This document shows, piece by piece, positions 21,642 through 57,465 of a stretch of 64,000 bases of DNA. Each line of letters begins with the position of its first letter. Position 1 is the stretch's first letter. Both the position numbers and the translations under genes were made by a program. The notes beneath the pieces are model-generated. The model did not search any database and was not told the origin of the DNA. It saw only the letters and a list, made by a program, of their open reading frames with translations. Source of the DNA: Anabaena sp. UHCC 0204 (GTDB lineage: Bacteria; Cyanobacteriota; Cyanobacteriia; Cyanobacteriales; Nostocaceae); assembly GCF_009711975.1 (NCBI RefSeq), contig NZ_VIKW01000012.1:1-64000 (forward strand), given 5' to 3'.

Positions 21642-21706
21642 TTGACAAGACGAAAAATTTAGTTTACACTAATGTTAAGAGTAGAAATCTGTTCGCGCAT
21701 ATATAG
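21642..21706 (+). promoter_or_regulatory. composite promoter element, copy 1
   Basis: TTGACA (21642-21647), exactly 17 nt, TACACT (21665-21670), then a conserved block GTAGAAATCTGTTCGCGC followed by CATATATAG (21681-21706). The same arrangement recurs at 41986, 53619 and 55401. The next gene on this strand is the GUN4 kinase at 22073. Confidence 0.7.
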
Positions 21707-21718
21707 TAAACTTTTGGA

Positions 21719-22072
21719 TTGTCTGAATCAGGATTTACAGGATTAAAGGATTTACAGGATTGTGATATTATCATTACCTAAACTATCCTGATATGGCTAC
21801 GCCACGCTTCGCTATCAGACAAATAAAAATATCCAAATCTCCACTAAAAATCATCCAATAACATCCTGAAAATCCTCAAATCCTGGATATCTTGATTCTG
21901 ACAAATAAAAATATCCAAATCCCCACCAAAAATCATTCAACAACATCCTGTAAATCCTTAAATCCTGGAAATCCTGATTCAGACAATTAAACGCAGATGA
22001 ACGCAGATAAACGCGGATGTTATACTAATTTTTAATTTCTCTCCCAATCCTGCAAATCCTAATTCTGACAAT
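21719..22072. repeat. block of ATCCTG-type dispersed repeats upstream of kinase
   Basis: The block opens with GTCTGAATCAGGATTTACAG (forward sense) at 21721 and continues with reverse-sense copies ending in CCTGATTCAGACAAT. Two ~81-bp units (about 21828-21908 and 21909-21989) are tandem direct repeats. A last partial copy abuts the kinase ATG. No ORF is supported here. Confidence 0.8.
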
Positions 22073-23557
22073 ATGCAATCCTGGACACCTAACACCCCAC
22101 TACAGAACGGACAGTATATCATTAAAAGAGCGATCGGTGGCGGTGGCTTTGGTGAAACCTATCTCGCAGAAGATACAGAAGAAAACAGGTTGGTTGTGAT
22201 AAAAACCCTCAACCGGGAACAACAACAAAAACCAGACTTTGCGGAAATACAAAAGAGGTTTAGAAAAGAAGCCTTAGATTTATCAAAATGCTATCATCCC
22301 CATATTGTCCAAGTTTACGACAATTTTCCCGAAGATGGACTTTGGGCTATTGTCATGGAACATATTGACGGTGATGATTTAGCAGCCTATGTTGAAAGCT
22401 ACACTGCTGAAAATGGTTACTTGTCAGAAACCGAAGCTTTGCGCTACATTGACCAAATCGGACAAGCTTTAGAAGTAGTTCATGAACGGAAACTTTTACA
22501 TCGAGATGTGAAACCCAATAATATTTTGTTGCGACGGGAAAGCAAAGAAGCAGTATTAATTGATTTTGGGTTAGCGCGGGAATTTCAACCTGGTAAAATC
22601 AAAAGCATGACAGCGATGATAACCGAAGGTTATGCACCCATAGAGCAATATGAACGGCGTGGAGATTTTGGTTATTATACAGATGTTTATGCTTTAGCAG
22701 CGACATTATATAGTTTATTAACGAATAGAGTTCCCATTCCTGCTAATTATCGCGCTGAGGAAGATGTCAAGTTATCACCACCGCAAAAATTTAATCAGCA
22801 GATTAGCGATAAGGTAAATGCTGCTATTCTCAAAGGTATGGAGTTAGAACCCCAAAACCGTCCGCAGACTGTGCGGGAGTTTAGGGAAATTTTGGGTTTG
22901 GTTATTCAACCTGTTTCTACACCTCAACCACAACCAAGACAACAACAAAATATCCCCACACCTCTACCACCTCCACCCCAAACTGTTCGTTTACCACGAC
23001 CTTATTCTTTCGTACCTAAGACAAAGGAAATTTTCATTCCTCAAAGTTCCACACCTCAACCAATAAACCAAGAAGTAGAATTAAAATCATCCTGTGGAAT
23101 GGACTACAGCAAACTGCAAAACTACCTCAAAGCTGAAAAATGGAAGGAAGCAGACGAGGAAACCAGACGGGTAATGTTAGCGGTTGCGAAACGGGAAAAG
23201 ATTCGTTGGTTAGATTTTGAACACATTAATAATTTTCCCTGTGAAGACCTCCGAACTATTGACCAGTTGTGGGTAAAATATAGTGATGGTAAATTTGGTT
23301 TTTCTGTGCAGAAACGGATTTATCAAGGTTTAGGTGGAACGAGAGAATATAACTCAGACATCAGAGAGAAGTTCGTAGCTGAGGTAGGATGGAGAAAAGG
23401 AGGAAAGGCTGGGATTATTACTTTTGACAAAAAAGCACCAGAAGGCCACCTCCCGATTCCGTGTGGGTTTCAGTGGGGAGTGATGGTTTGGTGGTTGGGT
23501 GGTGGCTGGGGATTGGCTTGTTGTCTCTTCTCTCGCGTCGAGACTTGTAAACTGTAA
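22073..23557 (+). CDS. Ser/Thr protein kinase with C-terminal GUN4 domain
   Basis: 494 aa. Kinase domain at about residues 13-280: glycine loop GGGGFGETYLAE, catalytic Lys in VVIKTL, HRDVKPNN catalytic loop, DFG in LIDFGLARE, and APE-like APIEQYE. A Pro/Gln-rich linker spans about 285-335. The C-terminal ~145 residues (MDYSKLQNYLKAEKWKEADEET onward) are a GUN4 domain, the tetrapyrrole-binding fold that in stand-alone form stimulates Mg-chelatase. It ends in the usual LFSRVETCKL. Such fusions are typical of cyanobacteria and may couple tetrapyrrole state to phosphorylation. It is flanked on both sides by ATCCTG repeats and preceded by composite promoter element 1. Confidence 0.92.
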   Translation: MQSWTPNTPLQNGQYIIKRAIGGGGFGETYLAEDTEENRLVVIKTLNREQQQKPDFAEIQKRFRKEALDLSKCYHPHIVQVYDNFPEDGLWAIVMEHIDGDDLAAYVESYTAENGYLSETEALRYIDQIGQALEVVHERKLLHRDVKPNNILLRRESKEAVLIDFGLAREFQPGKIKSMTAMITEGYAPIEQYERRGDFGYYTDVYALAATLYSLLTNRVPIPANYRAEEDVKLSPPQKFNQQISDKVNAAILKGMELEPQNRPQTVREFREILGLVIQPVSTPQPQPRQQQNIPTPLPPPPQTVRLPRPYSFVPKTKEIFIPQSSTPQPINQEVELKSSCGMDYSKLQNYLKAEKWKEADEETRRVMLAVAKREKIRWLDFEHINNFPCEDLRTIDQLWVKYSDGKFGFSVQKRIYQGLGGTREYNSDIREKFVAEVGWRKGGKAGIITFDKKAPEGHLPIPCGFQWGVMVWWLGGGWGLACCLFSRVETCKL

Positions 23558-40159: not shown

Positions 40160-40248
40160 GTTGGTAATTGGTAATTGGTGACTTGCCCTGAGCGTAGCCG
40201 AAGGGTTGGTGATTGGTAATTGTCAATTGTCAATTGTCAATTGTCCAC
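40160..40248. repeat. composite STRR overlapping the prfC 3' end
   Basis: Same composite as 27893-27984: GGTAATT heptamers, core CTTGCCCTGAGCGTAGCCGA, then CAATTGT heptamers. Its last bases encode the final codons and stop of prfC. Confidence 0.85.
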
Positions 40249-41865
40249 TGATTGTTGATTAGACAGAACTGGAGCGATCGCACTGAGTTTTAACTCTGGA
40301 TGATCACCCTCTAACTGTTGACAATTCCATTCATTGCGGAATAACAATACTGGTCGTCCCATACTATCTTTCACAGTAGTAGTATTGAATAAACGTCCTA
40401 CCTGATTTAACGCTTCCCAACCACCCTGAACCCAACGGGCGACACTGTAAGGTAATAAATCGAGGATAGTTTCTACACCATACTCATTTTGTAAGCGGAA
40501 TTGTACCACTTCAAATTGCAATTGACCAACCGCTGCTAAAATTGGCTCACGCTTGGCTTCATCACTTGAATACATAATTTGGACAGCGCCTTCTTCTCGC
40601 AATTCGGAAACACCTTTTTGAAATTGCTTAAATTTGGAGGGGTTGGGGTTTCTCAGAGTGGCAAATAGTTCGGGCGAAAAATAAGGGATTCCCTCATATT
40701 CTAGCTTCTTTCCTGTGTAAATTGTATCACCAATTGCAAAAACACCCGGATTGTTTAAACCAATTACGTCCCCTGGATAAGCAACATCAATAGATTCCCT
40801 TTCTTGGGCAAACAGTTTTTGTGGACGAGATAGACGGATAACTTTGCCGGTTCGAGCGTGGTTTACTGTCATATCTTTTTCAAACTTGCCTGTGCAGACC
40901 CGGACAAAAGCCACTCTATCTCGGTGTTTGGGGTCCATGTTCGCTTGCAGTTTGAAAATAAATCCTGTAAATTCAGGATAAGTTGGGGGAATGTCCCCAG
41001 CCGTGCTGCTATGTGTTCCTGGTTTGAGAGCAAAGTCTAGGAAGTTTTTGAGAAATAATTCTACCCCAAAGTTGGTCATGGCGCTCCCAAAGAAGACTGG
41101 GGTCATTTTGCCTGCGTGTACCAAGTCTAAATCTAGTTCTGGACAAACTCCTTCTAAGAGTTCTAATTCGTCTTTAAGTTGCTGATAGAGTTCTGGATCT
41201 AGTAATTGTTCCATGCGGCGATCGCCTAGATCGAGGATAGTATCCCGCGCTTCTTTACTACCATGAAAACTCCGTTCAAATAAATGAATTTGCTGCTGTT
41301 GACGGTCAAAAACGCCTTTAAAGCGATCGCCCATCCCAATCGGCCAATTCACTGCATAAGTCTGTAATCCTAACTCTTTCTCAATTTCATCTAACAAATC
41401 TATTGGTTCTCTACCCGGGCGATCGAGTTTATTCACAAAGGTAAAAATTGGGATTCCCCGCAGTTTACACACTTCAAACAATTTCCGGGTTTGCGGTTCT
41501 AAACCTTTAGCCGCATCAATCAGCATAACTGCATTATCTGCCGCAGCTAAAGTCCGATAAGTATCTTCACTAAAATCTTGGTGTCCAGGAGTGTCAAGTA
41601 AATTAATTTGACAGTTGCGATAAGCAAATTGTAACACTGTTGAGGTAACAGAAATCCCCCGTTGTTGTTCCATTGCCATCCAGTCAGAAGTTACTTTCCG
41701 CTGATCTCTGCGGGCTTTTACCGCTCCCGCTTCGTGAATTGCACCCCCGTATAATAATAGCTTTTCAGTTAACGTAGTTTTACCAGCATCAGGGTGAGAA
41801 ATAATCGCAAAGTTGCGACGCTGTTCCACCGCTTCACCTAGTTCTGTTTGCAGTTCAATGGACAT
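40237..41865 (-). CDS. prfC: peptide chain release factor 3
   Basis: 542 aa translational GTPase that recycles RF1/RF2 from the ribosome. G1 is [16 protein letters not shown] near residue 22, G2 is QQRGISVTS near 67, G3 is [16 protein letters not shown] near 88 and G4 is VNKLDR near 143. The later domains contain the RF3-specific [13 protein letters not shown] and [16 protein letters not shown] segments. The stop codon falls inside an STRR, so the last residues (QQSVDN) are partly repeat-derived. Confidence 0.96.
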
Positions 41866-41985: not shown

Positions 41986-42050
41986 TTGACAAATACCCAA
42001 CTTTCCCTTACTATAACATTATAGTGGAAATCTGTGCGCCCATATATATA
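41986..42050 (+). promoter_or_regulatory. composite promoter element, copy 2
   Basis: TTGACA (41986-41991), 17 nt, TACTAT (42009-42014), then GTGGAAATCTGTGCGCCC followed by ATATATATA (42024-42050). It is the clearest of four copies. A degenerate ATCCTGATTCTAACAAT repeat follows at about 42140-42170, as it does after copy 1. The next + gene is the DUF4870 protein. Confidence 0.72.
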
Positions 42051-42187: not shown

Positions 42188-42278
42188 ATACCTTGTCCAT
42201 TTTTTGTAGGTTGGGTAGAACGAAGTGAAACCCGACGCATTTGTTGGGTTATGGCTAACGCAAACAACCCAACCTACA
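42188..42278. repeat. palindromic TGTAGGTTGGG repeat, copy A
   Basis: TGTAGGTTGGG (42205) and CCCAACCTACA (42268) enclose GTAGAACGAAGTGAAACCCG. The first 62 bp (42188-42249) are identical to 53402-53463. The repeat contributes the first codons of a spurious upstream extension of the DUF4870 gene. Confidence 0.85.
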
Positions 42279-42328
42279 AATCAAGACTTTTTTTGATTTG
42301 GACGAGGTATGGAACAAGAAAAGGATTT

Positions 42329-42700
42329 ATGGAGCAAAAAATGTACGACAGCGATAAACGTAAACTCTTATCAGTGTTGTGTCATGGAGCAATTTTTTTT
42401 AGTACCACAATTGTCTCCATTGGTTTACCCATAGCCATACTCTTTGTATCAGATGATCCTGTCGTCAAGGACAATGCAAAGGAATCTATTAATTTCCACT
42501 TTAACGTTTGGTTCTATGGAGCAATTCTAGGAGCTTTATTTTTTCTAACTGGTTGGTTGGTTTTACCCCTAATCGTGTTGTTCCCAATCGCCGGTTTAGG
42601 ATATATCATCCACTGGGGGTTAACAATCTGGGCGTTAATTGGCGTTTTTAGCAATCCTGATCAACCTTGCCGTTATCCGTTTATTTTCCGAGTGTTTTAG
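42329..42700 (+). CDS. DUF4870 membrane protein
   Basis: About 123 aa from ATG 42329 (a second ATG at 42341 is possible). A start at 42251 would begin inside a dispersed palindromic repeat and is rejected. The sequence has the DUF4870 layout: SDKRKLLSVLCHGAIFFS, a first helix SIGLPIAILFV, the conserved VKDNAKESINFHFNVWFYGAI, and two further hydrophobic helices ending with Asn-Pro-Asp. The role is unknown. It lies about 280 nt downstream of composite promoter element 2. Confidence 0.85.
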   Translation: MEQKMYDSDKRKLLSVLCHGAIFFSTTIVSIGLPIAILFVSDDPVVKDNAKESINFHFNVWFYGAILGALFFLTGWLVLPLIVLFPIAGLGYIIHWGLTIWALIGVFSNPDQPCRYPFIFRVF

Positions 42701-53401: not shown

Positions 53402-53490
53402 ATACCTTGTCCATTTTTTGTAGGTTGGGTAGAACGAAGTGAAACCCGACGCATTTGTTGGGTAACATACGTCAACCTAACCTACATTAA
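53402..53490. repeat. palindromic TGTAGGTTGGG repeat, copy B
   Basis: Bases 53402-53463 are identical to 42188-42249, and the right arm is degenerate (TCAACCTAACCTACA). The 53192-53618 gap has no supported gene; just upstream, CGCCTTTGCGTCTTTGCGTG is another dispersed repeat. Confidence 0.85.
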
Positions 53491-53618: not shown

Positions 53619-53685
53619 TTGACAGTGTTTCGAGTTTTAGGTATGCTTATGGTATTAGTGGGAAAGTGTGCGCCCATATATATAG
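53619..53685 (+). promoter_or_regulatory. composite promoter element, copy 3
   Basis: TTGACA (53619-53624), 17 nt, TATGCT (53642-53647), then GTGGGAAAGTGTGCGCCC followed by ATATATATAG (53658-53685). It lies 206 nt before the intact Rpn gene start. Confidence 0.68.
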
Positions 53686-53890: not shown

Positions 53891-54736
53891 ATGCACACAG
53901 ACACAATATTCTACCAAATCTTCCTCACTTTCCACACACTATTATTTGAAATCCTGGGAGAACCTACAGAAAATGCCACAGATTATAAATTTACTTCTGT
54001 GGAAGTGAAAGAAAAAGCATTTCGATTTGATGGAATTTTTATGGCAGATAGCGTAGAAAAACCCATCTATTTTGTAGAAGTGCAATTTCAACCCAAACCA
54101 GATTTTTACTGGGAATTAATCGCCGAAATCAACATTTATCTGAATCAATTTAAACCAGTACAAGATTGGCAGGGGGTAGCTTTATTTGCGAAACGGAGTT
54201 TAGATGTAGAAGAATTGAGTGCTTATCAACAAGAATTGATTAATAGTGGGAGAATTAAACGAATTTATTTAGATGAATTACCAGCGGGTTCAATTGGAAT
54301 GGGGTTAATTGAGTTAATTGTCAGTAAGGAAGCACAAGCACCGGAATTAGTTAAAACCCTCATGGCAAGAACTAAGGCAGAAGTTGAGAATGACAGAGAA
54401 AAACAAGGTATTATAGAATTGTTAGAGACTGTTTTATTGTCCAAGTTTTCACAATTAAGCCGTCAGGAGATAGAAGCAATGTTTTTAGTGAGTGATATTA
54501 AGCAAACAAGAGTCTATCAAGAAGCAAAGCAAGAAGGTAGACAGGAAGGTAAAAAAGATGAAGCAACAAACTTACTGTTAAGGATATTATCTAAACGGTT
54601 TGGAAAGTTGGAAGATAGTTATATTCAAAACATCAACAGTTTGAATATAGAACAACTGGAAAAGCTAGGGGAAGCATTATTAGATTTTGCAGATATAAAT
54701 GATTTGGGAAAATGGTTAAAATCACCAGATGAATAA
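53891..54736 (+). CDS. Rpn family PD-(D/E)XK protein (DUF2887 + DUF4351)
   Basis: 281 aa. MHTDTIFYQIFLTFHTLLFEILGE at the start and FRFDGIFMADSVEKPIYFVEVQFQPKPDFYWEL supply the D...E-x-Q nuclease-like active-site strands of DUF2887/Rpn proteins. A helical middle, a Glu/Lys/Gly-rich joint (QEAKQEGRQEGKKDEAT) and a C-terminal DUF4351 (LLLRILSKRFGKLED...LNIEQLEKLGEALLDF) follow. Rpn proteins have been linked to RecA-independent recombination. It is the only intact member of a local three-unit array. Confidence 0.85.
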   Translation: MHTDTIFYQIFLTFHTLLFEILGEPTENATDYKFTSVEVKEKAFRFDGIFMADSVEKPIYFVEVQFQPKPDFYWELIAEINIYLNQFKPVQDWQGVALFAKRSLDVEELSAYQQELINSGRIKRIYLDELPAGSIGMGLIELIVSKEAQAPELVKTLMARTKAEVENDREKQGIIELLETVLLSKFSQLSRQEIEAMFLVSDIKQTRVYQEAKQEGRQEGKKDEATNLLLRILSKRFGKLEDSYIQNINSLNIEQLEKLGEALLDFADINDLGKWLKSPDE

Positions 54737-54765: not shown

Positions 54766-55032
54766 ATGCACACAGACACAATATTCTACCAAATCTTCCT
54801 CACTTTCCACACACTATTATTTGAAATTCTGGGAGAACCTACAGAAAATGCCACAGATTATAAATTTACTTCTGTGGAAGTGAAGGAAAAAGCCTTTCGA
54901 TTTGATGGAATTTTTATGGCAGATAGCGTAGAAAAACCCATCTATTTTGTAGAAGTGTAATTTCAGCCAAAACCGGATTTTTACTGGGAATTAATAGTAG
55001 AGATAAATATCTATCTGAATCAATTTAAACCA
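54766..55032 (+). pseudogene. truncated Rpn/DUF2887 copy with nonsense codon
   Basis: Near-identical to 53891-54157 for the first ~190 bp. A CAA to TAA change at 54958-54960 stops it after 64 residues, right in the active-site strand. The same frame continues with QPKPDFYWELIVEINIYLNQ and similarity ends abruptly at 55032. The 55033-55400 stretch that follows has no gene I can support. Confidence 0.9.
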
Positions 55033-55400
55033 TTATCTTCACTAGAGAAACCAAATCTATTTTCCATTGTGGTTATAAATGCCAGAGTATCTATAGCCAT
55101 AAGTGATCCTTGATATCGGTATTATTTGATGTGCCTGGATTGTAAACAGGTTTATCTATGTACCTTTAAGTTAAATCAAAACTTGGGAAGTTACAAAAAT
55201 AGTCATAATATGATACATATTCCCTACGAATTATACACTAGTTACTTAGTACGGAAATAGCAGAAGAGGAAAAAAGCTAGAATCTGTGCAACAAACAGCA
55301 CAGAATTTTGCTACTGATAGTGTTATTCATAAATAAGAATAAACATAAAGTTTCCATTTCTTAAAAAAGTTGGGAAAACAGAATATTTCTAAATAATTGC

Positions 55401-55460
55401 TTGACAAATTTAGCAATTAATTCTACTATATTTATAATGGGAATCTGTGCGCGCATATAG
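55401..55460 (+). promoter_or_regulatory. composite promoter element, copy 4
   Basis: TTGACA (55401-55406), 17 nt, TACTAT (55424-55429), then ATGGGAATCTGTGCGCGC followed by ATATAG (55437-55460). It lies 167 nt before the kinase-FGE gene. Confidence 0.7.
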
Positions 55461-55626: not shown

Positions 55627-57465
55627 ATGCAAATTTGTCAAAATCCCAATTGTTCCAACCCCTTCAACCCAAAAACCTCTAAATCTTGCCTAAGTTGCCA
55701 AGAAAGTAACTTTGGGGAAATGCTGCGAAACCGTTACCGGGTTTTGAGGTTATTAGGTGAAGGTGGATTTAGCAGAACCTACGCTGCTGAAGATGTAGAT
55801 AGACTGAATGCACCTTGTGTAATTAAGCAATTTTTCCCCCAAGTCCAAGGAACTGGACAACGTGCTAAAGCAGCCGAGTTTTTCCGAGAAGAAGCTTTTA
55901 GATTATATGATTTGGGAGAAAATCATTCCCAAATTCCGCGACTTCTAGCTTACTTTGAACAAGGTTCTAGTTTGTATTTAGTGCAGGAATTTATTATTGG
56001 CAAAACTCTTCTAGAAGAACTTCAAAATCAAGCTTATAGCGAAGCAGAAGTGCGGCAACTTTTAGCTGACTTATTACCAGTTCTAGATTTTGTTCACAAA
56101 CACAATGTTATTCACCGCGATATCAAACCCGAAAATATTGTTCGTCGGGATAGTGATAAAAAACCCGTATTGATTGATTTTGGTGGTGCAAAGCAAGTTA
56201 CTCAAACCAGTATCGCTAGACAAGCGACAGCTATTTATACCCTTGGTTATGCACCAACAGAACAAATGGCCGGATTTGCTTGTCAAGGAAGTGATTTATA
56301 TGCTTTGGGTGTAACTTGTGTGCGGTTATTAACTCAAGATTTACCATTACAAGATGATTATGGACAACTTCAAGATCATCTTTATGATGCCATGAATGCT
56401 AAATGGTTATGGACAGAACGTTTACGAATTAAAGGAATTACTATTAGTGAGGACTTAAAGCAAATATTAGATAAATTACTCCAACATTTTGCTAGTGATA
56501 GATATCAGTCAGCACTCGATGTATTAGATGATTTAAACTATGCCAAATCTCCCGTAGCCCTCAAGTTTTCCTCTCTTCCTAAAGCGCCATTAACACCGTC
56601 ACCGCCGACAAAAATTGTTGTTCCCTTACCTCTTTTATATAACTTTGATTATTGTGTTATTACCGTAAATACTTCTGGGAGAGAAGTGAACCGTGATAGA
56701 CGTAATACTAAATATTTTGTAGAGGAATTAGGCAGAAATACTACTTTAGAAATGGTATCAATTCCGAATGGAACTTTTATTATGGGTTCTTTGAGTTGTG
56801 AAGGTGATGATGATGAACGTCCCCAACATCAAGTAATAGTTCCATCTTTCTTTATGGGGAAATATCCTATTACTCAAACACAGTGGAGAACAGTAGCAGC
56901 TTTACCTAAAATTCAACAATCATTAAACCCCAACCCATCAAAATTTAAAGGTGCAAATCTGCCAGTAGAAAATGTTTCTTGGTATGAAGCAGTGGAATTT
57001 TGTGCCAGATTATCAATTAAAACTGGAAGAAAATATCGTTTACCGAGTGAAGCAGAATGGGAGTATGCTTGTCGGGCAGGAACTACCACATCTTTTCATT
57101 TTGGAGAGACAATTACTTCCGATTTAATTAACTGTAGTGGTAGTGATACTTATTCTGTCGAACCAAAAAGTAGATTTCGTAAAGAAACAACTAGTGTTGG
57201 TTATTTTGAAATTGCGAATGCTTTTGGTTTATATGATATGCACGGGTTAGTGTGGGAATGGTGTGCAGATCCTTGGCATAATAACTATCATGGCGCACCT
57301 ACAGATGGTAGTATATGGGAAGCTGGGGGTGATCAACATCGTCGGGTTTTAAGGGGTGGTGCATGGAATTTTAGTGCCGAACTTTGTCGTAGTGCTAGTA
57401 GAAGCTGGAATGAAGCAGACGGTGGTTTACGAATTTGTGGATTTCGGGTAGTATTTTCTGTTTAA
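55627..57465 (+). CDS. Ser/Thr protein kinase fused to a formylglycine-generating-enzyme-like (FGE-sulfatase) domain
   Basis: 612 aa. A four-Cys zinc ribbon (CQNPNCSN...CLSCQE) occupies residues 4-25. The kinase domain spans ~35-300: glycine loop LGEGGFSRTYAA, Lys in CVIKQF, catalytic HRDIKPEN, LIDFGGAK, and APTEQMAG. After a Pro-rich linker the C-terminal ~240 residues form an FGE-sulfatase/SUMF1 domain: MVSIPNGTFIMGS, PVENVSWYEAVEFCARLS, YRLPSEAEWEYACRAG, and RVLRGGAWNFSAELCRSASR...GFRVV. Such kinase-FGE fusions occur in cyanobacteria; the FGE part probably binds and does not modify sulfatases. Composite promoter element 4 lies upstream. Confidence 0.92.
   Translation: MQICQNPNCSNPFNPKTSKSCLSCQESNFGEMLRNRYRVLRLLGEGGFSRTYAAEDVDRLNAPCVIKQFFPQVQGTGQRAKAAEFFREEAFRLYDLGENHSQIPRLLAYFEQGSSLYLVQEFIIGKTLLEELQNQAYSEAEVRQLLADLLPVLDFVHKHNVIHRDIKPENIVRRDSDKKPVLIDFGGAKQVTQTSIARQATAIYTLGYAPTEQMAGFACQGSDLYALGVTCVRLLTQDLPLQDDYGQLQDHLYDAMNAKWLWTERLRIKGITISEDLKQILDKLLQHFASDRYQSALDVLDDLNYAKSPVALKFSSLPKAPLTPSPPTKIVVPLPLLYNFDYCVITVNTSGREVNRDRRNTKYFVEELGRNTTLEMVSIPNGTFIMGSLSCEGDDDERPQHQVIVPSFFMGKYPITQTQWRTVAALPKIQQSLNPNPSKFKGANLPVENVSWYEAVEFCARLSIKTGRKYRLPSEAEWEYACRAGTTTSFHFGETITSDLINCSGSDTYSVEPKSRFRKETTSVGYFEIANAFGLYDMHGLVWEWCADPWHNNYHGAPTDGSIWEAGGDQHRRVLRGGAWNFSAELCRSASRSWNEADGGLRICGFRVVFSV

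Follow-up and report, generated by a model that had tools for sequence, protein, structure and literature searches.

Element copies in the window and their genes

The window, i.e. the whole analyzed stretch of 64,000 nucleotides from Anabaena sp. UHCC 0204, carries four copies of a promoter-like element, all on the forward strand. Copy 1 (21642..21705, +) has its −35 box TTGACA at 21642-21647, the −10 box TACACT at 21665-21670 and a conserved block at 21681-21705. Copy 2 (41986..42048, +) is arranged in the same way, with the −35 box at 41986-41991, the −10 box TACTAT at 42009-42014 and the block at 42024-42046, as are copy 3 (53619..53682, +; −35 box 53619-53624, −10 box TATGCT 53642-53647, block from 53658) and copy 4 (55401..55459, +; −35 box 55401-55406, −10 box TACTAT 55424-55429, block 55437-55459). 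The spacer between both boxes is exactly 17 nt long in all four copies, and the blocks of copies 1, 2, 3 and 4 read GTAGAAATCTGTTCGCGCATATATA, GTGGAAATCTGTGCGCCCATATATATA, GTGGGAAAGTGTGCGCCCATATATATA and ATGGGAATCTGTGCGCGCATATA, respectively. If up to three mismatches are allowed, the block has four matches in the window compared to 0.02 expected by chance, and none of 100 shuffled sequences reaches four.

Direct reading bears out the four positions and the TTGACA-N17-TAnnnT layout given in the sequence-only reading of this DNA. The consensus proposed there holds in so far as the block is present in all four copies, but a single copy alone has its symmetric part TGCGCGCA without deviation. Likewise, the distance of 7-10 nt between the −10 box and the block agrees with the observed lengths of 10, 9, 10 and 7 nt (copies 1 to 4), but the sequence of this gap is semi-conserved and not random.

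Copy 1 lies upstream of a Ser/Thr kinase with a GUN4 domain (22073..23557, +; Pfam PF00069 3.4e-42, PF05419 6.4e-39). Copy 2 stands between the divergent gene prfC, which encodes release factor 3 (40237..41865, −; Pfam RF3_C 9.5e-45), and a gene for a DUF4870 protein (42251..42700, +; Pfam PF09685 8.3e-23), the conserved start of which is probably at 42329 or 42341. The same DUF4870 gene start is preceded by the element at locus L017. Downstream of copy 3 a DUF2887/DUF4351 protein is encoded (53891..54736, +; Pfam PF11103 1.4e-69, PF14261 4.6e-22), and the relatives of this gene have the element at their 5′ side and, at four loci, a convergent element at the 3′ side too. Copy 4 precedes a Ser/Thr kinase with an FGE-sulfatase domain (55627..57465, +; Pfam PF00069 6.9e-34, PF03781 4.1e-56) of the MQICQNPNCSNPFNP type, which recurs downstream of the element in low-copy genomes.

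Some further repeats were observed in this region. The repeat taccttgtccattttttgtaggttgggtagaacgaagtgaaacccgacgcatttgttggg occurs twice in the window (42190-42262 and 53402-53463), each time close to an element copy. A repeat of the TTGTCTGAATCAGGATTTACAGGATTTGAGGATTTACAGGAT type is abundant in both orientations and often begins 20-60 nt past the block; it is found in the window at 21720-22060 and at the loci L001, L005, L007, L009, L010, L020 and L028. A truncated second DUF2887 copy, interrupted by an in-frame stop, lies directly behind the intact gene (54766-55080).

Anatomy of the element

The general layout is TTGACA, a spacer, TAnnnT, a gap, and then [AG]TGG[AG]AAnnTGTGCGCnCATATA(TA)n. 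Among 94 non-redundant copies the spacer is 17 nt long in 80, 18 nt in 11, 16 nt in two and 15 nt in one, a tally which is partly pre-selected as many of these copies were found with the promoter pattern. With both hexamers and a spacer of 16-18 nt the element conforms to a sigma-70-type promoter. The gap between the −10 box and the block is mostly 6-7 or 9-10 nt long in the non-redundant copies and is semi-conserved, of the types TTATgTTATgA or ATTATA. The identity of spacer and gap amounts to 80-81% at 12 loci that were found with patterns fixing the −35 and block letters. The block is followed by a (TA)n run of variable length, and beyond the block the predicted transcript sequence differs between element classes. 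Judged by the distance from the −10 box, the block would start about 0-4 nt past the transcription start and cover about +2 to +25.

The covariance model suggested by the sequence-only reading was built from 45 copies, themselves TTGACA copies. This model, R1, is in effect sequence-only. The four window copies score 48.9, 55.8, 54.7 and 48.6 bits with it. An exact TTGACA is present in 34 out of 35 non-redundant R1 matches extending to the −35 box. In 44 non-redundant R1 matches (of 75), for which the exact block was not required, the block letters are near-invariant, except that a single site within the block varies freely (C 17, G 17, T 6, A 2). This free position is the dyad partner of a T which is invariant in 44/44. 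As the free position faces an invariant T, the palindrome TGTGCGCnCA is not the conserved feature, and the earlier suggestion of a symmetric TGCGCGCA repressor operator is not supported.

A search for the block without the promoter gave 62 matches in 23 out of 386 genomes, with no match of the reversed control pattern in any genome listed. In 26 of the 32 distinct matches that could be read the strict promoter pattern is present; the remaining six have TTGACA (three), TTGATT (two) or nothing clear (one).

We rejected two readings of the block itself. A leaderless micro-ORF, and thus a leaderless peptide, does not fit with the block starts GTAG (10) and CTAG (5) that occur besides GTGG (43) and ATGG (27) in the 94 copies, nor with changes that fall on the first two positions of the codons, nor with the variable (TA)n. 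A T7-like promoter was dropped in view of the sigma-70 promoter in front of the block and of the changing (TA)n spacing.

Distribution among cyanobacteria

The strict pattern of promoter plus block occurs six times in the 5.74-Mb genome, compared to zero for the reversed pattern. With R1 we found ten copies of 41.9-60.8 bits, the weakest of them at an E value of 7e-10 and the next match at 0.28. Four of the ten lie in the window, all on the + strand, and the other six at C7, C15, C16, C32, C66 and C79. The further copies anticipated by the sequence-only reading thus exist in the genome, and they exist in other Nostocales as well: the strict pattern is present in 29 out of 145 genomes of the family (16 out of 56 genera; control 0). 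The genus to which the window belongs is represented by seven genomes in that search, and each of them is a carrier. R1 matches were found in 47 out of 386 genomes of the phylum and 24 out of 142 genera, all belonging to the same order as the genome studied.

A scan of named stretches gave 90 stretches, and all 80 listed titles are cyanobacterial. Carriers among the listed stretches include Dolichospermum, Anabaena, Sphaerospermopsis, Cylindrospermum, Aphanizomenon, Cuspidothrix and Trichormus, and further Richelia, Iningainema, Okeania, Symploca, Oscillatoria and Microcystis. Nostoc (Anabaena) sp. PCC 7120, a laboratory strain, does not occur in the 80 titles. One stretch outside the 80 titles, L182, looks like a chance match. 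The number of matches per genome ranges from one to 41; high numbers from the phylum search are lower bounds, since it considered no more than 13 candidates in each genome and its list of matches was truncated. Two genomes of the order (G251 and G062) contain the element about 40 times each. G251 has 41 R1 matches at an E value of 1e-3 or better, and all 24 that were read show TTGACA and a block-like stretch. In this genome (L299-L318) the variant block often ends in GCGCGCCTATAATTGACTTCCCAA, and three copies precede genes with a MID(H)D RLFKELI-like start (L306, L312 and a relative in L313). One copy of G356 is, flanks included, identical to the copy found in Microcystis novacekii (L135, L192), and on this ground we take genus g67 for Microcystis.

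Viral contigs gave no match to the strict pattern and plasmids none to copy 3, and phages gave chance matches alone (E 0.7) with copy 2 as query. On these outcomes we rejected a phage or plasmid origin. The window has no Rfam match at gathering score, and six and seven further loci gave sub-threshold eukaryotic matches alone. The block was not found in cyanobacterial work among the open-licence papers listed for six block sequences, nor was the element described in the titles and abstracts of the open-licence literature that were listed by topic.

Conservation beside prfC

To follow a single site through the genomes the prfC loci were fetched by protein search, blind to the element. The gene is present in all 24 carrier genomes, and 16 of these have an R1 match beside it (17 matches, two being in one locus). 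Among 25 prfC loci from other genomes of the family, mostly non-carriers, there is no R1 match. The mean pairwise identity over the 16 loci is 77.5% for the element compared to 40.7% in the preceding and 31.6% in the following stretch of 110 nt, while one must keep in mind that three of the 16 elements are identical and that detection by R1 leaves some bias towards the model. Five of the 16 copies do not show the strict block pattern. The gene downstream of the prfC-side element differs between species and is sometimes convergent. Eight of the 24 carriers have no copy beside prfC and have either lost it or never had it.

That 16 of 24 carriers keep the prfC-side element within diverged flanks is an argument for conserved function and against recent duplication, as the sequence-only reading had supposed.

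Genes around the element copies

For the neighbour counts, copies with identical sequence were collapsed, orthologs and tandem copies were counted separately, and the numbered genomes (G) and loci (L) overlap. Open reading frames are greedy longest-ORF calls and not gene predictions. The next ORF is co-directional for 103 of 200 sequence-distinct copies and convergent for 67, no call was made for 20, and ten lie inside an ORF of the opposite strand. Many copies are found about 80-370 nt before an ORF start. Copies that are antisense inside a gene are kept between related genomes, as in an MFS transporter gene (L150, L188, L035), a family-38 mannosidase gene (L260, L276, L286) and an Okeania methyltransferase/glycosyltransferase gene (L108, L117, L147, L172). 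We rejected the reading as a simple promoter of the next gene because the 67 convergent copies are too many for it.

Of the genome's ten copies, five are next to a Ser/Thr kinase, and the kinase model matches 47 regions of this genome. Three of the five are downstream (22073, 55627 and one on C32 at 561 nt), one is divergent (C15) and one convergent (C7). Across genomes, 27 out of 103 copies with enough flank (of 151) have a kinase catalytic motif no more than 1.5 kb away, compared to any kinase motif in three out of 33 control windows from the same contigs; in 24 out of 103 it is downstream and co-directional, a number that includes tandem copies and orthologs separately and does not represent independent events. 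The co-directional downstream proteins fall into 37 clusters and the convergent ones into 34, with 25 of 42 and 25 of 73 listed for the cluster families. Among those listed, kinases (at least four), Uma2 (at least three), FGE (at least two), GUN4 (at least two), DUF2887, DUF29, DUF7149 and GmrSD are co-directional, and PIN (at least six) and kinases (at least four) are convergent.

With PADLOC all three tested kinases match PD-T4-6 models: the protein of 55627-57465 at 1.2e-104 (residues 1-323), that of 22073-23557 at 1.1e-76, and the kinase of L272 at 5.2e-52, here second to mad6 (6.5e-57). As PD-T4-6 models are kinase models, we regard these matches as a lead and not as a defence assignment. 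For the Microcystis-type gene of L261 the match is to a type IIG restriction enzyme (1.1e-139). No PADLOC match was obtained for the DUF4870, DUF2887 and DUF29 proteins and the L306 protein, and the latter has no Pfam match either. We further report that the kinase-FGE proteins of L272, L268 and L329 possess RGGSW...GFRVV-type C termini that vary between relatives, which we take to resemble the targets of diversity-generating retroelements.

Inward-facing pairs

Among the copies listed, neighbours within 6 kb of each other face inward in 14 cases and outward in none, and in 33 cases they stand in tandem. Named loci add five inward and no outward pairs, leading to 19 inward and no outward pairs among the copies listed; this list is incomplete, and the 19 pairs represent about eight gene families, so that the effective number is nearer eight. 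Between the paired copies lie a kinase (11 pairs, assigned by Pfam of relatives or by sequence resemblance), DUF2887 (four), DUF29 (one), PIN alone (one) or no gene of at least 100 codons (two). In the best sampled family, the MAYFTPGQ kinase-FGE family with five loci, the 3′ copy lies 104-106 nt past the stop codon in all five, and the 5′ copy 80-94 nt before the start in four loci and 1,491 nt before it in one. In G073 the kinase has been deleted between two retained copies, and its first codons remain.

The two copies of a pair were compared with all other combinations. Spacer and −10 box are 50% identical within the 19 pairs compared to 55% otherwise (4953 of 5000 permutations reach this likeness or exceed it), and as they are no more alike within pairs, paired copies belong to different promoter classes. 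The identity of the block is 78% within pairs and 77% otherwise, and 1281 of 5000 permutations are as good, so that there is no sign of co-evolution between paired copies. Inward pairs hinted at the terminal inverted repeats of a transposon or MITE; since the promoter parts of paired copies differ, this candidate was rejected.

Tandem arrays and transcript structure

Tandem arrays occur in many genomes and comprise three to five copies in L050, L125, L180 and G364. The largest one, in G062 (L333/L334), has 38 R1 matches on one strand within 8.5 kb, where the copy common to L333 and L334 was counted once; it begins behind a COX3 gene and ends 140 nt before hypF. Its unit of about 190 nt contains a promoter-like stretch, a HIP1-like GCGATCGC and a T-run; R1 aligns here only from about position 25, and the −35 box TTGACT was read by eye. 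A relative (G013, L332) has an array of 13 copies. Arrays of the Microcystis type have a longer unit of about 230 nt, in which the element is joined by a leader and by the first codons of a type IIG restriction gene (DUF7149), and several of their copies are truncated fragments (L261, L263, L265). Two of them contain an IS200-like transposase ORF (Y1_Tnp 7.5e-8). The leader of the same three loci has a possible hairpin GGTTTTTGAG...CTCAAAAATC, read by eye, with variants that keep the pairing.

Arrays of 3-5 copies, arrays of 13 and 38 copies with a promoter-like stretch in each unit of about 190 nt, and copies facing the 3′ ends of genes would fit with a multicopy family of small non-coding RNAs comparable with NsiR1. 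A small RNA family had also been among the suggestions of the sequence-only reading. A discrete RNA with its own terminator is not supported: a purpose-made scanner detected a terminator-like site within 300 nt downstream of one out of 89 dispersed copies, compared to three each in the antisense and upstream controls. The transcript diverges between classes past the block, no Rfam match is above threshold, and the many copies about 80-370 nt before an ORF start speak against it as well. We therefore consider a small RNA family decidedly improbable.

The arrays also bear on a selfish dispersed repeat, i.e. a mobile or recombinogenic, promoter-bearing sequence that is kept by copying and has no shared host function. 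The range from one to 41 matches per genome and the tandem duplication would fit, as would the Microcystis-type copies, which are fragments of a restriction-gene promoter and leader with the IS200-like ORF in two arrays, and so would the gene lost between retained copies in G073 and the eight carriers without a prfC-side copy. The conservation beside prfC in 16 genomes despite diverged flanks speaks against it, and paired copies, at 50% identity within and 55% between pairs, are not terminal inverted repeats. We regard this explanation as very doubtful.

At the RNA level the block could serve as a 5′ tag, forming the first 22 nt or so of an mRNA leader, an antisense RNA or an array RNA, to which a protein or a trans RNA would bind and set stability or translation. 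Its place at the 5′ end of the presumed transcript, its asymmetry, a length exceeding that of usual operators and the arrays without a gene per unit agree with such a tag. In addition, the sequence TGGRAA recurs in inverted form within 40 nt downstream in 15 out of 94 copies, compared to 5.3 in shuffles (direct repeat 2), and in 10 out of 24 copies of G251, compared to 2.1 (direct repeat 1); this weak excess of TGGRAA...TTYCCA could close a 5′-terminal stem. The 94 predicted transcripts, however, have a mean folding z of +0.15, with z below −1.5 in seven, and covariation is absent, the own pairing scoring −3.73 and swapped ones −3.71 (in G251, 391 of 1000 swaps are as good). Also, a (TA)n of variable length follows the block. 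In our view an RNA tag is possible but unlikely. The 5′ leader mentioned in the sequence-only reading is to be judged in the same light: as a structured leader it finds no support in folding and covariation, while roughly every second copy could plausibly give rise to an ordinary mRNA leader (103/200 co-directional).

A partial inverted repeat, of which one arm covers the −10 box, has a mean arm of 3.65 compared to 2.76 with shuffled gaps, and none of 300 shuffles reach it. If own gaps are exchanged for swapped ones the signal is weakly specific (9/300, then 22/500 and 81/500). As the left arm of this repeat would be untranscribed, it is a hint at DNA rather than RNA.

A proposed dispersed promoter family with a start-proximal block

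The explanation we favour, with a confidence slightly short of even, is a dispersed family of sigma-70-type promoters in which the start-proximal block is the target of one putative trans-acting factor. A near-consensus TTGACA-N17-TAnnnT promoter would carry a built-in asymmetric recognition block of about 22 bp. At this block one putative regulator would act while transcription is being initiated, either on the DNA or on the polymerase, similar to what happens at lac-type or LexA-type start-site operators. Accessory genes such as Ser/Thr kinases, DUF2887, DUF29 and type IIG restriction genes may thereby be joined in one regulon. Because the module is also found convergent at the 3′ end, the regulator might govern the sense and the antisense transcript of a given gene at once. 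Copies would have spread by duplication, as tandem arrays and as promoter-plus-leader fragments. The dispersed, copied module in bloom-forming cyanobacteria is apparently a previously undescribed control element.

In favour of a promoter with its own regulator are the 26 of 32 block matches with a strict promoter and five more with TTGACA or TTGATT, the conservation beside prfC, and the lack of RNA fold and covariation. The inverted TGGRAA half-sites, the −10 dyad, the kinase association and the 19 inward compared to no outward pairs point in the same direction. Against it one can hold that the block is conserved at more positions than a single dimeric regulator would require, that the core dyad of the block is broken at an invariant T, that the swap test of the −10 dyad is weak, and that eight of 24 carriers do without the prfC-side copy. 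In addition, 67 out of 200 copies are convergent, and arrays of 38 and 13 copies are odd as plain gene promoters. If the element is read as a plain gene promoter, it is chiefly the arrays and the orphan copies that lack an explanation.

A further reading, which we consider quite unlikely, is a lineage-wide ‘start tag’ system. Here one factor would recognize the 22-nt start on sense mRNAs, on convergent antisense RNAs from the 3′ end of the same genes and on decoy or sponge RNAs of the arrays, so that a set of kinase, nuclease and restriction genes would be switched in a bistable or titratable manner. Several genes of this proposed set look like phage-defence genes.

If the promoter family forms a regulon, many uncharacterized Ser/Thr kinases, DUF2887, DUF29 and restriction genes would be under one control. 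The inward copies bracketing genes would represent a testable scheme of sense/antisense control, and the arrays a natural experiment in promoter or decoy dosage. The module is conspicuous, being 60 bp long, common to many genera and without an Rfam match in the stretches scanned.

Comparison with known systems

The operators lacO1 and the LexA boxes are located at transcription start sites. The element resembles them in that the site lies over the first 20 bp or so of the predicted transcript of a sigma-70 promoter and is shared by several genes, but its block is asymmetric and longer. We are not aware of a cyanobacterial operator similar to the block. A second concept to which the element can be related is that of mobile promoters and promoter-bearing repeats, as a promoter sequence is common to unrelated loci with unrelated flanks and has been copied within genomes. 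It differs from them in that no insertion-sequence ends were seen and in that it is kept through speciation at the orthologous prfC site.

The ncRNA element DGR1 is present in 70 copies in Nodularia spumigena, the transcribed regions of which share 98% identity or more, and related DGR targets are FGE-sulfatase proteins (PMC3610870). Both are multicopy elements in Nostocales genomes, and several kinases near our element carry an FGE-sulfatase domain. Only promoter and block are common to our element classes, which sets the element apart from DGR1 as described there.

NsiR1 is described as an RNA of about 60 nt from a tandem array upstream of hetF in Nostoc with DIF1-motif promoters (PMC9045159, PMC3610870). 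The promoters of our element are TTGACA-type and not of the DIF1-motif type. NsiR1 is confined to one locus, whereas the element is dispersed over many loci, lacks a consistent terminator and forms its largest array between a COX3 gene and hypF and not at hetF. Common to both are tandem repeats in Nostocales with a promoter per unit, which for our element is a likeness of the array loci alone (L050, L125, L180, L332, L333/L334) and of predicted promoters, and one NsiR1 copy is antisense to a neighbouring gene. Within the literature considered here, NsiR1 is the nearest described array (PMC9045159, PMC3610870, PMC4734099).
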